Position numbers and translations under genes: made by a program. Below are positions 11,901 to 19,003 of a DNA stretch of 64,000 bases, one piece after another. The stretch is taken from NCBI GenBank assembly GCA_029834535.1, contig JAQMWT010000421.1, positions 62,001 to 126,000 of the forward strand, written 5' to 3'. The notes beneath the pieces are model-generated. The model had not been told where the DNA came from and made no database searches. It saw only the letters and a list, made by a program, of their open reading frames with translations. This DNA comes from Chrysophaeum taylorii. Its lineage: Eukaryota; Sar; Pelagophyceae; Pelagomonadales; Pelagomonadaceae. Within the stretch, counting starts at the first letter, position 1. Every line of letters starts with the position of its first letter.

Positions 11901-14168
11901 TCAGTCACCGCCCCGGGGCAGCTCGTCGCCGTCGCCTTCGCCTTCGTCGCCGTCGTAGGGGGATTTGAAGATGTCGAAGGAAGTATCGTCGTCGCCGCCA
12001 TCTTTGTTGTTGTCGGTGGGAGTTGGTGGAGCAGAGCGAGCGACGGCCGAGGCGGCGAGGAGCTCCAATTGGGCGAGGTCGGCGAGAGAGAGCTCGACAG
12101 CCTTAGTCGCCTCGGGGCGGTCCTCTCTGATTCGGTGGAGCTCGAACTTTGTGGAGTTGACGCCGTCGAGGAGGGCGGTGAGGACGCGGGCCGCGTTGGG
12201 GTGCGCGCGCGCGAGCTCGACTCTGAGGGCGAGGGCGGCGAGCCTCGCGTGCGCGAGGCGGAGGTCGACGTCGAGGTTGGCGAGGTCGGCGGCCGCCGCG
12301 AGGATGTGGTCCGCGAAGTGCTTGAGGGCCTCGGGTGCGTCGGCGAGGAGGGAACGCTTGAGGACGGCAGCTCGCTTGGCGGCGACGGTCGCGGCTTCGA
12401 GCAACGCGAGGCGGCGTTCGAGGTTGGCGCGGGTGCGACGTCGGAAGGCCGTCGCCGCGGCGTACTGGTCTTCGACGTCGCGGCGCGCGAGGTTGAGCTC
12501 GCTTCGGGCGTCGTCGAAGGCGGCGATGATGCGCTCCCGGTCCCTGATCTGTCGACGGACGAGGTCGGCGCGCGCGCGGATCGAGTCGTCGGCGAGGTCA
12601 AAGTAACGCGGGAGGCCGGCCGTTTGGTCGTCGAGGCAGGCGACGAGACGGTCGCGGGCCGCGTCGGCCAGGTCGACCACCTGGCGCGCGTGGTTCTCGA
12701 GGAGCGTCGCCATCGTCTTGGCCTTGGCGGCCAGTTCGGTCTCGCGAACGCCGAGTTCGGCCGCGAGCGTCGCGCGCGTCGTCGCGTCGTCGACCGCCCA
12801 GGTGCACTCGGCGGCGGCGACCGAGGCCTTTGCCTCGTCGGCGTCGAGGTCGCAGTTCCGGTGGAGCTCGTCGACGATGGCGACGGCCGTCGCGAGCCGC
12901 TCGTCGATCGCGAGCCTCAGCTCGGACGCGGCCGCCGCGGCCTCGCACGCCATCTCGAACGCGGCCGACCGCGGCGACGTGGTCCCCACCGGCGGGGGGC
13001 GCGGCGGCGTCGAAAAGACGCCGTCCGAGGTCTCGCGGGCCGCGGCGACGCAGGCTTTGTGCGCCTCGCGCGATATATTCCTCGCGTCGCGGCACGCGCG
13101 CACGCCGTCGCGAAGCGCTTCGAACGCGCCCGTCACCGTCGCGTCGAGGTCCGTCTCCGAGAGCTCGCGGACGCTCGCGTCGCGGAGGCCCCGCGTGAGG
13201 GCCGCGAGCTCCACGGCGCGCCGCTCGCGCCGCTCGACCTCGCGCAGGCACCTCGAGCCCTCGCGGAACCTCGCCGCGAACGGCAATCTGGCCAGCTCGA
13301 CCGAAAGCGGAACGAGGCACCGGGACGCGGCGACCACCTCGGGGCACAAGAGCGCGGGCACGTTGAGGGTAAATCTGGCGCTGCGCAGAAACTCGGGCTT
13401 CGCGACCGCCTTGGCGCCCGACGCGAACGCGCTGCAGACGCGCGACACTCGCAGCGCTGCTCGCGCGTAGTGAGCCGGCTCGAGCGTCGTCGCCGCCTCG
13501 CACTGCTTGGCGACCTTCGCCGACACCTCGCTCACCCGCGCGAGCTCGCGACCGACCGCCGCCGCAACTCGCGCCGTCGAACCGCCGCTGCTCTCCTCGT
13601 GCAACGCACGCCGCGCCGCCGACGCCACGACCTTCCCGTAGTCGCCCGACGAGTTTTTCCCGTCGCGCGGCGACGACGACGCCTCGACGAGCCACGTCAG
13701 CCGCGCCCACGGCACGCGGAACCCCAAGGCCAGAGGGTCCGCGAACCGCGTCGATACGTCTCCGATATCATCCTCGGGCTCGGCGACCTTGGACCCCCCC
13801 CGGCGCGTCTTGGCCACCGTTATCGATAGCACCTGGTCCGCGCTGCTCATCATTTCCGCCACGGCCGCGGCCGTCTCGGTTGGGGCGCCGCCCACGCGGA
13901 TTATCGTGTCCCCCACCTCCAGCCGCGACCGCCCGTCTTCGCCCGAGGCGAGGGGTTCGATTCCGCGGATCACGCCGCCGACACCACCCTCCTCCAGAAA
14001 GATCCCGAACCCCCCGTGCCGGTCGCGCCGGACGTACAGGTCGACGCACTCCGACGCCTCCTCGACCGACGCGACGCTGCTTCCCGGAGCCTCGCCGCCG
14101 GAACCCTTTCCGGCCTTGCCGCTGGCCCCGGTGGTGGTCGTCGTCGTCGTTCGTTGGACCCACCACAT
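11901..14168 (-). CDS. PDZ-domain coiled-coil protein
   Basis: 755 aa from ATG 14168, apparently one exon. An N-terminal Thr/Gly-rich segment precedes a PDZ domain at about aa 40-125 (HGGFGIFLEEGG carboxylate loop; LEVGDTIIRVGG helix-strand). The remaining 600 aa are Ala/Arg/Glu-rich and predicted helical or coiled-coil, with an acidic C-terminus (DGDEGEGDGDE). PDZ domains usually bind C-terminal peptides, so a scaffold role is likely. It is divergently transcribed from another PDZ protein 578 bp away, which suggests either an old duplication of the PDZ part or a shared regulatory region. No named family is recognised. Confidence 0.8.
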   Translation of the reverse strand: MWWVQRTTTTTTTGASGKAGKGSGGEAPGSSVASVEEASECVDLYVRRDRHGGFGIFLEEGGVGGVIRGIEPLASGEDGRSRLEVGDTIIRVGGAPTETAAAVAEMMSSADQVLSITVAKTRRGGSKVAEPEDDIGDVSTRFADPLALGFRVPWARLTWLVEASSSPRDGKNSSGDYGKVVASAARRALHEESSGGSTARVAAAVGRELARVSEVSAKVAKQCEAATTLEPAHYARAALRVSRVCSAFASGAKAVAKPEFLRSARFTLNVPALLCPEVVAASRCLVPLSVELARLPFAARFREGSRCLREVERRERRAVELAALTRGLRDASVRELSETDLDATVTGAFEALRDGVRACRDARNISREAHKACVAAARETSDGVFSTPPRPPPVGTTSPRSAAFEMACEAAAAASELRLAIDERLATAVAIVDELHRNCDLDADEAKASVAAAECTWAVDDATTRATLAAELGVRETELAAKAKTMATLLENHARQVVDLADAARDRLVACLDDQTAGLPRYFDLADDSIRARADLVRRQIRDRERIIAAFDDARSELNLARRDVEDQYAAATAFRRRTRANLERRLALLEAATVAAKRAAVLKRSLLADAPEALKHFADHILAAAADLANLDVDLRLAHARLAALALRVELARAHPNAARVLTALLDGVNSTKFELHRIREDRPEATKAVELSLADLAQLELLAASAVARSAPPTPTDNNKDGGDDDTSFDIFKSPYDGDEGEGDGDELPRGGD

Positions 14169-14746: not shown

Positions 14747-17422
14747 ATGGACGAGGCGGAGGGAGAGAAGCTCGAGCCATCGTCGGAGACGTACTTTTCG
14801 ACCCCGCCGCAGGAGGAGAAACCGGCGCCGGAAGAAGATGGCGCACCCCATGGAGAAGGAAAAGCAGAAGAAGAAGAAGAAGAAGAAGAAGAGGGTTCGT
14901 TGGAGCAGGTTGTCGAGTTCGGGCACGGTCCTCTTGGGCTGACGATGCGGCGGACGCGCGAGGAGGCGATCGTGGTGCACCACATCGCGGAGGATACGCA
15001 GGCGGCGACGAAGGGTCTGCGCGTCGGCGACGGCATCCTCCAGCTTGGATCGTTCGATTTGCGGAACCGTCGCGTGGATAAGGACACTTGGAAGCGCGCG
15101 ATCGAGCACGTCAAAAAGTGTCCGCGACCCCTCGCTGTCGTCTACGTGCGGAAGGAAGAACCGCCGCAAGAAGTAGATCCTCTGGATAAGGCGCTCGCGT
15201 ACGCGCGCGAGCGGACGACGGCGGCCAAGCGAAAACTTTCTTGGACTAAGTTTTTTTCGGGCGAGTCGTCGCGGTGTCGCGCGATGGTCGAGGCGCGCGA
15301 CGCCAACCTCGTTTTCGACGGCGGGGTGTCTCTGTGGCGGCCGCCCCAGCGGTTCCGGGCCCTCTTGACCCTCGTCAAACACGGCGACTGCTTCCAGCGC
15401 GACCGGTACGCGCTCGCGTTCGAGCGCGGGGGCGCGATCGCGCTCGTCGTCGCCGCGCTTCCCCCGAATATCAGGGGTACCGGCAAGTGGATGCTTCCGG
15501 AGGGATCCCTCGAGGTCGAGCGATGCGTCGTCCTCGACGCCTGCAAGCTGCGACGCGACGCGAGCGTCCCTTTGCCAGCCTTCGAGATCTCGGCCCCCGA
15601 CGGCGACCTCGTGCTGGGCGTCGACGACCCCGACCGCAAGCAGGCCTGGCTCTCGCTGCTGGCGACGGCGCTCTTGAACACGACGCGGTCGGCGTACTCG
15701 GACGACGACCGGGCTACCGACGACGCGGCCGTTCAGGGCTTGTGGCGCCACCACGTCTTGCTCGGCACGCCGCACGCGCTCGCCGCCGGCGTCGCCGTCT
15801 CGAGCGACCGCCGAGACGCCGCTAGTCGCGACGAGGAAGACGACGCCGACGACGACGGGCACCACCACCCCCCCAATGCCGCCGCAGCCGCCGACCACAA
15901 GCCGGCGGCGCCGAGCGTGGAGGAGGAGCTCGAAGTGGTGCTGTCGCGGGGGTGCGGGGTCGACGTCCGCGACTCTAAAGGCCGCGCGGCGCTCCACGTG
16001 GCGGCGTTCCGCGGCGCGACGGACGCGGTTGCCGCCCTCCTCGAGCGCGGCGCCGACCCTACGGCGGCCGACGCGCGCCGCTCGACGCCGCTCCACGAGG
16101 CCGCGCGCGGCTGGCACGACTCGGCCGTCAGCCTCCTCCTCGCCGCGCCGCCGCCGCCGCTCAAGCGCGCCGACGATTCGTTCGAAGAAGCCGCCGCCGA
16201 TCGAGACGACGACGACCAGGCGGTCGAAACTCGCGACGCGCGCGGCGCGACGCCCGTGATCGCGACCGCGACCGACCTCCCGAGCGCCCCCGCGCTTCGC
16301 GAGGCCGACCTCGAGCGCCTCTCGCGGACGCTCCTCGCGCTCTCGGCCTGGGGCGCGCAGCTCGACGCGCGCGACGGCGCGGGCCTCTGCCTCGTGCACC
16401 GCCTCGCCCTCGCGCGCCGCGCTCGAGAACTCGAGGTCGCGTGCCGAGCGGCGCGTCTCGCAGCGACGACGCGCCTCATCGCGAGTCCCAAGAGCATCGA
16501 CGCGCGCGACGACGCGGCCTTCGCGCTTCTCCAGCGCGGCGCGACGCCCCTCCACGTCGCCTTCGCCGGCCAAGTCGCCGACGCGGAGACGAGCGCGAAC
16601 CTCGCCGCGACCTGCGACGTCCTTATTCGCCACGGCTGCGACCCCCGCGACGTCGACGCCGACGGCCTCACGGCGCCCGAGCTGGCAATCGCCGCCCTCG
16701 ACCGCGCCCCCGACTGCCCCACCGCCGTCGTCGGTGCCGTCTGCGCGATCTGCGTCAACGAACCCGATACCCAGACCAAGCCCCTCGTCGACCTCGTCCT
16801 CGCGCTCATCAAGCAGCGCAAAATACCCAGACAAAAAAACACCACCACCACCTCCTCCTCCTCCTCCTGGGCGACCTTGGTCGAAACCCTCGAGACGATC
16901 AAGAAGGACCGAAAACGCAACAACAAGGCCGCCGCCCGCGGCTTGGGCGGCTGGTTCTCTAACCTCGCTTCTTCTTCTTCTTCTTCTTCTTCTCCTGCAG
17001 GTCCCGACCTCTCTTCTGGAGGAGGAGACCCCGGAGACCCCGGAGACCCCGGCCGTCGGGCGAGCCAAGACAACAACAACAACAACAGCAGCAACAACAG
17101 CAGCAACAACAGCAGCAACAACAGCAACAACAACAGCAAACCCCTCCCGAGAAACTTTGCGAGTCGCGCCTACCAGAAGAGCACGACCGACGACGCGTAT
17201 CGCGCCGAGCTCTTTGGCCACCCGGACCAACAACCCTCGCACGCCGAAAAAATCGAGGCCCAGGCCGCGGGGTTCGACGATCTCAAAAACGAACTCGCCC
17301 AAAGGGGGGAGCGGCTCGGCAAGTTGTCTGACAAAGCCGAAGAGCTTGCCAGCGCCTCCGAACAGTTCGAGAAGATGTGCACGCAACTCAACCGCCAGCG
17401 CCAAAATGCCTCCTGGTGGTGA
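14747..17422 (+). CDS. PDZ-PH-ankyrin protein with C-terminal R-SNARE motif
   Basis: 891 aa from ATG 14747 (the frame opens upstream at a GTG). Order: acidic tail with poly-Glu; PDZ at about aa 52-136 (GPLGLTMRRT, LRVGDGILQL); a PH-like domain at about aa 170-315; ankyrin repeats at about aa 395-640 (GRAALHVAAFRGATDAV, STPLHEAARG); a Ser/Asn/Pro-rich linker with an (AAC/AGC)n Asn-Ser run; and a C-terminal 60 aa matching an R-SNARE helix. That helix has AQRGERLGKLSDKAEEL, close to VAMP7, with the zero-layer Arg, and ends in WW where VAMPs meet the membrane. No transmembrane helix follows. R-SNAREs form four-helix fusion complexes; a soluble one, as in tomosyn, usually regulates fusion. That role is inference. 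Confidence 0.82.
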   Translation: MDEAEGEKLEPSSETYFSTPPQEEKPAPEEDGAPHGEGKAEEEEEEEEEGSLEQVVEFGHGPLGLTMRRTREEAIVVHHIAEDTQAATKGLRVGDGILQLGSFDLRNRRVDKDTWKRAIEHVKKCPRPLAVVYVRKEEPPQEVDPLDKALAYARERTTAAKRKLSWTKFFSGESSRCRAMVEARDANLVFDGGVSLWRPPQRFRALLTLVKHGDCFQRDRYALAFERGGAIALVVAALPPNIRGTGKWMLPEGSLEVERCVVLDACKLRRDASVPLPAFEISAPDGDLVLGVDDPDRKQAWLSLLATALLNTTRSAYSDDDRATDDAAVQGLWRHHVLLGTPHALAAGVAVSSDRRDAASRDEEDDADDDGHHHPPNAAAAADHKPAAPSVEEELEVVLSRGCGVDVRDSKGRAALHVAAFRGATDAVAALLERGADPTAADARRSTPLHEAARGWHDSAVSLLLAAPPPPLKRADDSFEEAAADRDDDDQAVETRDARGATPVIATATDLPSAPALREADLERLSRTLLALSAWGAQLDARDGAGLCLVHRLALARRARELEVACRAARLAATTRLIASPKSIDARDDAAFALLQRGATPLHVAFAGQVADAETSANLAATCDVLIRHGCDPRDVDADGLTAPELAIAALDRAPDCPTAVVGAVCAICVNEPDTQTKPLVDLVLALIKQRKIPRQKNTTTTSSSSSWATLVETLETIKKDRKRNNKAAARGLGGWFSNLASSSSSSSSPAGPDLSSGGGDPGDPGDPGRRASQDNNNNNSSNNSSNNSSNNSNNNSKPLPRNFASRAYQKSTTDDAYRAELFGHPDQQPSHAEKIEAQAAGFDDLKNELAQRGERLGKLSDKAEELASASEQFEKMCTQLNRQRQNASWW

Positions 17423-17606: not shown

Positions 17607-18944
17607 TTACTTCGGGGCGCGAGCGTAGGAGCGACGATAGGCCGCGTCGATACCGGCGAGATAGAAAACGCCAGGGGCGAGGGGCAAGGTGCCCTTGGGT
17701 TCGAAGGGAGCCTTGCCGTAGGCGGCCTCGCGGAGGTCGCAGGCGAGGTGGAAGTCGTCCGGGGACGCGGCGAGGCGCGCGTCGAGCCTCGCAGAAACGG
17801 CAGTCGTTTCGGCGATCTTGGCGAGCGTGAAGCGCGCACCCTCGCGGAACGTCAGGGAGTACATGGTGGCCATCGACCCCGAGCCGTAGGAAAAGAGGAG
17901 GACGCGCTTGCCGAGGAGCTCGCGGGGCCCGGCGGCGATTAGAGATACGAGACCATAAAAGACGCTCGCCGTGTACGCGTTGCCAACGTTCTTCGGGAGG
18001 AGCGTCGTGGGCGCGACCTTGGCCTCGTAGGGCGCGGCCTTGCGGAGCGCCGCGTCGAGCGCCTTGTCCGAGAGCGACGCGTCGTACTCGGGCGACGCCC
18101 ACAAGGGCGACGACGACAGGTCGCGGCGCCACCGGTCGGACACGACGGGCGAATCAGATTCGAGCGCGTCGGCGAGCACGAGCCGCGCGAGACCCTTCTG
18201 GACGAGCTTGTTATAGGGCGCGTGAAAACAGTAGTAATCAAAGGTCTCGAGCGAACACCCTGCCTTGCGGTTCAGAAGACCCCAACATCGGTCGACCGAC
18301 GACAAATAACACGCCTGCGATAGCTTTCCGTCGACGGTCGCGTACTCCGAATCGCCGCGCGGCTTGTAAAAGTCCCAGACGTCCATGCCGCACGTGGCGC
18401 GCTTGGGATCCAGCACGATCGGCGCGTCGGGCCCCACCAACATCGCGACCGCCCCGCACCCGCCGCTCGGACGCGCCGGCCCCGCCTCGTATACGGCGAC
18501 GTCGCCGCACACGACGACCGCCAACCGGCCGTCCCAGGCCGACGACTCGACCCACGCCACAGAGTTCAAAAACGCGGCGGTGCCTCCGTAGCACGCATTC
18601 ACCGACGTCACGCCCTCCGCGTCGCTCTCCTCGCCTAACAACCGCAGCAAGCTCGTTTTTATCGACTTGCTCTTATCGACCAGGCTCTCGGTCCCAACTT
18701 CCAGCCGACCGATCTCCTTCGCCTCGATCCCATAGTTCTCCAGCAGCCGCGCACACGCCGTCAACAGCACGGACCCGATGTCCTCGCGATCGTCCACGAA
18801 TGCCATGCGCTCCTGGCCCAGTCCGGTCACGTACTTCCCGACGCACCCGTCCCGAATCTCGAGCTCGCGCTGCTCGACAAAGCTCATCGGCGAGTACCAC
18901 TCAATCGCGAGGATACCCACGTTCTTCGGACGCCGACCGTCCAT
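17607..18944 (-). CDS. Hydroxymethylglutaryl-CoA synthase
   Basis: 445 aa from ATG 18944; the frame starts two codons earlier at a GTG. Catalytic elements are visible: NACYGGTAA with the acyl-accepting Cys, FHAPYNKLVQK with the His, a VGTESLVDKSKS segment near the catalytic Glu, and the glycine-rich SYGSGSMATMY near the C-terminus. The enzyme condenses acetyl-CoA with acetoacetyl-CoA to HMG-CoA, the committed step to HMG-CoA reductase in the mevalonate route to sterols and isoprenoids. No targeting peptide is evident, so it is probably cytosolic. It is convergent with the PDZ-SNARE gene; the 184-bp spacer holds GAT/GAC microsatellites. Confidence 0.95.
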   Translation of the reverse strand: MDGRRPKNVGILAIEWYSPMSFVEQRELEIRDGCVGKYVTGLGQERMAFVDDREDIGSVLLTACARLLENYGIEAKEIGRLEVGTESLVDKSKSIKTSLLRLLGEESDAEGVTSVNACYGGTAAFLNSVAWVESSAWDGRLAVVVCGDVAVYEAGPARPSGGCGAVAMLVGPDAPIVLDPKRATCGMDVWDFYKPRGDSEYATVDGKLSQACYLSSVDRCWGLLNRKAGCSLETFDYYCFHAPYNKLVQKGLARLVLADALESDSPVVSDRWRRDLSSSPLWASPEYDASLSDKALDAALRKAAPYEAKVAPTTLLPKNVGNAYTASVFYGLVSLIAAGPRELLGKRVLLFSYGSGSMATMYSLTFREGARFTLAKIAETTAVSARLDARLAASPDDFHLACDLREAAYGKAPFEPKGTLPLAPGVFYLAGIDAAYRRSYARAPK

Positions 18945-19003
18945 CGCCACACAACTAATTAATTAATTTATAATTTAAATAAATGAATAAATAAATAAAT
19001 GAA

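Follow-up and report, generated by a model that had tools for sequence, protein, structure and literature searches.

A predicted soluble R-SNARE with PDZ, PH-like and ankyrin domains in the pelagophyte alga Chrysophaeum taylorii

Anchorless R-SNAREs and the gene of C. taylorii

Tomosyn and amisyn are named as regulatory R-SNAREs in a phylogenetic study, the available part of which describes both as anchorless and as restricting access to the acceptor complex (PMC6143360). Tomosyn (STXBP5 and relatives) is, according to the accessible text of PMC10495110, a large soluble protein with WD40 beta-propellers and a C-terminal R-SNARE motif, without an anchor, and its SNARE domain binds syntaxin-1 and SNAP25. 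Amisyn (STXBP6) consists of 210 amino acids (aa), in which a PH domain that mediates membrane association is joined to a C-terminal coiled coil without hydrophobic anchor (PMC10670990, available part); the PH domain is described as N-terminal (PMC10670990, PMC6557626, available parts), though PMC10670990 oddly puts it at aa 151-210. In Leishmania major, the very large protein LmjF32.2160 has an apparent R-SNARE motif, no anchor or lipidation site and no significant similarity to tomosyn, as stated in the accessible part of PMC1626469. VARP (ANKRD27) is an ankyrin-repeat protein that binds the R-SNARE VAMP7 (PMC11817943, available part), and traps it in a closed state according to a title cited there. 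Here we describe a gene in a stretch of 64,000 nucleotides (nt) of Chrysophaeum taylorii DNA (the window, part of contig C421, JAQMWT010000421.1), in which a single reading frame is predicted to join PDZ, PH-like and ankyrin domains to an R-SNARE helix that lacks an anchor. We put at roughly 0.55 the probability that, as read from its sequence, its product is a soluble R-SNARE of the tomosyn/amisyn kind, regulatory and non-fusogenic, with several domains and targeting modules of its own. The same assembly contains, on C697, a RuBisCO large subunit with 7yk5, 5mz2, 5n9z, 5oya and 6ftl as best solved relatives; these are mostly diatom enzymes, which points to a photosynthetic stramenopile as the most likely host.

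Like tomosyn, the predicted protein is soluble and anchorless and ends in an R-SNARE motif, and the solved tomosyn motif (1URQ, 53 residues) reaches 18.7 bits on the R-SNARE profile described below. In contrast to tomosyn, no WD40 or Lgl-type domain appeared among the Pfam rows of the whole protein, and the two motifs are identical at 8 of 56 columns, five of them empty in the tomosyn row. Like amisyn, it would join a PH-like domain to a soluble C-terminal coil, but it is far longer. Amisyn has, to our knowledge, neither PDZ nor ankyrin domains, and a Pfam search of the studied protein gave no match to PF15277 (Sec3-PIP2_bind), which we take to be the Sec3-type PH family of amisyn. By domain content, the predicted protein is therefore a member of neither family. 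LmjF32.2160, which we set beside it by description only, differs in that no PDZ, PH or ankyrin domain is named in the accessible text of PMC1626469. VARP and VAMP7 are two separate proteins, whereas ankyrin repeats and R-SNARE helix lie in one chain here.

An earlier annotation made from the letters alone (the sequence-only reading) knew of no described protein with this domain order, and the open-licence PMC titles and abstract beginnings that we searched describe no PDZ-PH-ankyrin-R-SNARE protein either. It also cited tomosyn and amisyn as soluble R-SNAREs with other domains; the solubility holds, but amisyn also has a PH domain (PMC10670990, available part), so that the pairing of PH with a soluble R-SNARE has a precedent. 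Because amisyn already pairs a PH domain with a soluble R-SNARE-like coil, and LmjF32.2160 is an anchorless protist protein with an R-SNARE motif, the kind is known and the novelty is the combination of PDZ, PH-like and ankyrin domains with a soluble R-SNARE.

The R-SNARE motif, the reading frame and the upstream domains

The Pfam family Synaptobrevin (PF00957, curated cut-off 26.4 bits) matches the last 76 aa with 29.3 bits (E 7.6e-7), and in a six-frame search of the 70.8-Mb assembly (697 contigs) the score was 27.8 bits; both lie above the cut-off. The runner-up families for the tail, Spectrin (22.9 bits) and APG6_N (20.7 bits), are each below their own cut-offs. We also built a profile on seven R-SNARE motifs that the genome itself supplies, with the window gene and tomosyn left out. 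The tail reaches 26.5 bits on this profile and 0.1 bits on a Q-SNARE profile. The R-SNARE score was reached by none of 2000 plain shuffles (maximum 11.6) and by none of 2000 heptad-preserving shuffles, which keep core and non-core positions apart (maximum 14.1). Among the 602 stop-to-stop frames of at least 60 aa in the window, the studied frame ranks first at full length (21.2 bits) and the second reaches 6.2 bits. None of the genome's ten Q-SNARE matches, among them the low-complexity-looking L070, which was kept, scores above 10.4 bits. When each of the seven genome motifs was left out in turn, they scored 33.9-99.4 bits, the lowest being L005 with Asn at the zero layer; against these values, the 26.5 bits of the tail indicate a motif that is divergent but real, and the scores identify the tail as an R- rather than a Q-SNARE helix.

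The zero layer is Arg853, followed by Gly. From layer -3 to layer +8 the residues are the expected ones (F L L R L L A L S F C L), and Ile stands at layer -5. The hidden Markov model matches, whose absence would have refuted it, agree with the sequence-only reading, which had placed an R-SNARE helix with a zero-layer Arg in the last residues. Its assignment to the VAMP7 type is not supported, and we assign no subtype: among solved chains, yeast Snc1 (E 0.0013) and VAMP4 (E 0.006) are both closer than VAMP7 (E 0.17). AlphaFold2, run without an alignment, predicts one continuous helix here, with mean predicted local distance difference test (pLDDT) values of 73-91 in ten-residue blocks over aa 835-884; most other parts of the model are below 50. 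In the model of aa 385-891 (mean pLDDT 48), the SNARE helix is the sole trustworthy part.

No transmembrane segment was found in the open reading frame (ORF), the best 19-residue Kyte-Doolittle mean being 1.38, which bears out the earlier statement that none follows the SNARE helix. The terminal Trp-Trp is likewise present as stated, but not at the point where VAMPs enter the membrane: it lies four residues beyond the VAMP position, at +9/+10 past layer +8 vs +5/+6 in L005 of the same genome. The 11 Pfam rows with E<=10 include no longin family, a result that a divergent longin could escape, since Pfam (E<=0.01) is also silent on L005, which is longin-like. With Ser at -2, the C-terminus A-S-W-W was considered as a class I ligand for the protein's own PDZ domain, an idea set aside as unsupported. 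In the alignment with an InaD-like PDZ, Trp occupies what we take to be the usual class I His position, and Trp is a rare C-terminal residue.

The ORF is uninterrupted and ends in NASWW, and the open frame in register with it spans 956 aa. Its length is little proof, because long ORFs arise easily in DNA of such high G+C; a 910-aa ORF also exists on the antisense strand. We therefore scored codon usage, with training on 3683 codons from other genes of the genome. Frame 0 is top of the six frames in the PDZ (0.18 per codon), PH-like (0.38), both ankyrin (0.19 and 0.19) and SNARE (0.25) segments; the other forward frames are negative across all domains, and the best reverse frames are at most 0.04. 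For the SNARE segment, the other forward frames score -0.60 and -0.81 and the reverse frames at most 0.01. In the linker, frame 0 (-0.27) is the best forward frame, yet below one reverse frame (-0.20). Past the stop codon its score falls to -1.48. Moreover, the + strand has no ATG in any frame between 15876 and 17375, which together with the codon preference for one frame makes a separate gene for the SNARE segment unlikely. Frame, codon and ATG evidence thus argues against an outcome that the sequence-only reading had named as refuting it, namely that the 3' end belongs to another gene; an intron-like stretch of 47 nt, discussed below, leaves some doubt.

As to the domains ahead of the helix, PF00595 (curated cut-off 23.2 bits) matches the PDZ segment alone with E 2.1e-5 (25.2 bits, above the cut-off) and within the whole protein with 20.7 bits (below it). 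The segment also matches an InaD-like PDZ in PDB (E 0.0015), and it contains GPLGL, which we take to be a carboxylate-loop-like motif. Ankyrin repeats match Pfam strongly, and further repeats around aa 564-650 are sub-cut-off (E 0.02-0.3). For the PH-like segment there is no Pfam family at E<=10. A profile of 29 PH domains of the genome (from the best 30 of 88 matches; L040, equal in score to L039, was omitted) matches with 15.2 bits over aa 253-307 only, the C-terminal half, with the conserved Trp in place; none of 1000 shuffles reached this score (maximum 4.5), and the reversed segment scored -1.1. A genome search with the PDZ-PH segment gave two weak non-PDZ matches (L027, E 0.90; L028, E 1.16), both of which overlap independently found Pfam PH domains. 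Single-sequence AlphaFold of the PH-like region was unusable (mean pLDDT 36). Since Pfam is silent, it is the genome profile and the two weak matches that suggest a PH-like region at about aa 191-312, with putative phosphoinositide binding. The earlier claim that PDZ, PH-like and ankyrin domains precede the SNARE helix thus stands on Pfam matches for PDZ and ankyrin, and less firmly for the PH part.

Proposed role and alternative explanations

By analogy with the known proteins, the fusion-inhibiting or tethering role directed by phosphoinositides and PDZ ligands that the sequence-only reading suggested would be reasonable. The PDZ, PH-like and ankyrin modules, through their presumed ligands, would keep the protein at one particular membrane or scaffold, and the C-terminal helix would enter a bundle with Qa, Qb and Qc SNAREs at the R position. 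Without a membrane anchor, such a bundle could not draw two membranes together, and fusion would be limited; the protein may thereby block, delay or reserve the site for the cell's own anchored R-SNAREs. Weak layers -4, -6 and -7 suggest that pairing would occur mainly through the C-terminal two thirds of the motif. Competitors are available, since the same genome encodes anchored R-SNAREs (L001-L007), of which L001-L005 have hydrophobic tails and L007 ends in CCVIA, Ykt6-like. If true, this would be a third design with different targeting modules. It would suggest that control of fusion can arise repeatedly when an R-SNARE helix loses its anchor and gains an address, and the gene would be a concrete target for studies of algal secretion. 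More speculatively, and with some doubt on our part, photosynthetic stramenopiles might possess a separately evolved class of address-carrying competitor R-SNAREs, in which an anchorless R-SNARE with PDZ-PH-ankyrin acts as a brake or tether that lipid and PDZ ligand direct to one membrane, perhaps with a VARP-like ankyrin clamp and a splice switch in the 47-nt stretch.

Several observations weigh against a regulatory R-SNARE with its own targeting modules. On the whole protein, PF00957 reaches only 24.4 bits, just below its cut-off; layers -7, -6 and -4 are the non-canonical Q, H and Q; and the PH call is weak. Searching the genome with the SNARE part gave no paralogue, with one other row at E 1.08 (L022, RhoGAP-like by eye, rejected as a second soluble R-SNARE). 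With the whole protein, all 103 rows beyond the gene itself fell inside aa 329-542, that is, the ankyrin part and the stretch preceding it (51 of 291 candidates scored). Searches of viral and prokaryote collections gave no relative, although a nuclear gene of an alga is hardly expected there. The R-SNARE motif of LmjF32.2160 is regarded as unlikely to be functional by its authors (PMC1626469, available part), and tomosyn, according to the title of PMC10495110, alters dense core vesicle composition and not exocytosis, which means that an inhibitory role is not universal even for tomosyn.

Another explanation sees in the tail a structural coiled coil which resembles an R-SNARE but stays out of SNARE bundles, the protein being a membrane scaffold. 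The tail is identical to the seven genome R-SNARE motifs at only 11-14 of 56 positions, its N-terminal layers are degenerate, and Spectrin and APG6_N also match it weakly, all of which speaks for such a coil. We nevertheless regard this as improbable, because shuffles that preserve the heptads stay far below the score of the tail, the zero-layer Arg has Gly next to it, and the tail outscores solved tomosyn, a binder of syntaxin-1 and SNAP25 (PMC10495110, available part), on the same profile.

Alternatively, the gene model could be an artefact, with splicing that cuts the R-SNARE off from the PDZ, PH-like and ankyrin part or brings in an anchor from another exon. Introns of this genome are tiny: three of 46, 49 and 56 nt, with donors GTGCGA, GTGAGC and GTGAGC, were inferred from paralogues or a split hydrophobic tail. 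In the R-SNARE gene of match L006 (L029, C262:72000-76000), a 46-nt intron lies directly behind the SNARE motif and the hydrophobic tail is on the separate next exon, so a hidden anchor exon is worth considering for the studied gene. Of 423 donor-acceptor pairs joined near the gene end, 12 gave a 19-residue hydrophobicity of >=1.6 (four with GT donors), and the ten of them that were listed all share one stretch that contains an Arg and extends into the antisense of the HMG-CoA synthase gene. No credible anchor exon downstream was thus found among the pairs listed, in a noisy test that excludes only an obvious anchor: in the L006 gene, used as control, 44 of 300 pairs passed and the true exon was not among the ten listed.

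The 47-nt stretch within the linker, about as long as the genome introns, speaks for the same explanation. If it were removed, the frame would change and meet a stop at 17329, whereas with its retention the R-SNARE is encoded. Inside it, frame 0 scores lowest of the three forward frames in codon usage (-3.27 vs -1.94 and -1.91), which points the same way. However, GTTCTC compares poorly as a donor with the three inferred ones, and codon usage favours frame 0 on both sides, over 16841-16953 (0.20 vs -1.50 and -0.26) and over 17140-17230 (0.16 vs -0.66 and -0.66), as well as over 17140-17419 as a whole. From 17001 to 17070, frame 1 is best (0.03), followed by frame 0 (-0.71) and frame 2, the post-splicing frame (-1.06). 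We give the scores around the stretch little weight, because the pieces are short and repetitive. With no ATG for a separate gene, an artefact appears quite unlikely; a splice switch is possible.

Least probable of all, and very unlikely, is an active R-SNARE that PH-like domain, PDZ domain and Trp-Trp attach to one membrane, Ykt6-like without a transmembrane segment: the Trp-Trp ends a helix reaching aa 889 and could sit in the membrane surface, and the genome profile does suggest a PH-like domain, but about 520 residues with low-complexity stretches lie between that domain and the helix, so that force would not be transmitted next to the membrane, and the CaaX cysteine is absent.

Feature coordinates, neighbouring genes and other genes of the genome

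Table 1. Coordinates of the studied gene, its predicted parts and its neighbours (window positions)
Feature	Positions	Strand	Remarks
Whole coding sequence	14747-17422	+	891 aa plus stop; no intron required
PDZ domain	14906-15160	+	aa 54-138; PF00595 25.2 bits on segment
PH-like domain (suggested)	15317-15682	+	about aa 191-312, limits by eye; genome PH profile
Ankyrin repeats	15938-16141	+	aa 398-465; PF12796 E 6.1e-13, PF00023 E 2.9e-12
Possible divergent ankyrin repeats	16436-16696	+	about aa 564-650; PF12796 E 0.023, below cut-off
Low-complexity linker	16838-17190	+	Thr/Ser, Ser8, GDP repeats, Asn/Ser run; limits by eye
Intron-like stretch, 47 nt	16954-17000	+	GT...CTAAC...(TTC)n...CTGCAG, within linker
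Single continuous C-terminal helix (predicted)	17240-17413	+	aa 832-889; AlphaFold2 without alignment
R-SNARE motif, layers -5 to +8	17252-17389	+	aa 836-881; Pfam, genome profile
Zero-layer Arg853 codon	17303-17305	+	within QRGERL
C-terminal Trp-Trp and stop	17414-17422	+	no membrane anchor or CaaX cysteine after
Neighbour gene, divergent, upstream	11901-14168	-	another PDZ protein; PDZ 20.4 bits, below cut-off 23.2
Neighbour gene, convergent, downstream	17607-18950	-	HMG-CoA synthase

The upstream neighbour encodes a 755-aa product with an N-terminal PDZ followed by a long Ala/Arg-rich body, helical-looking by eye. It stands head to head with the studied gene at a distance of 578 bp, and the two PDZ genes share one upstream region. 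A close common origin of the two PDZ domains was set aside, as BLASTP gave no notable PDZ-to-PDZ alignment.

Elsewhere in the genome, the tomosyn-type families PF08596 and PF08366 gave no match, but the positive controls were silent too, so absence is not shown; the same holds for Sec3-PIP2_bind, the controls of which were likewise silent. The solved tomosyn motif, used as protein query without a positive control, found no match in the genome. L005 (C156:24999-25250) and L030 (C115:81552-81831) are related R-SNAREs with Asn in place of Arg at the zero layer, in the contexts LANCVALE and LKNCVSLE. One ORF (L025 727-2172, C584) combines an ArfGAP with at least two PDZ stretches according to Pfam, and the PDZ part of the query also matches L024 (C479), in a long ORF of phosphatase-like appearance by eye. 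Fusion of PDZ to trafficking domains may recur in the lineage and is not unique to the studied gene. The PH matches L039 (C6:43753-44025) and L040 (C268:44438-44710) have identical score and open-frame length, and are perhaps two haplotypes.

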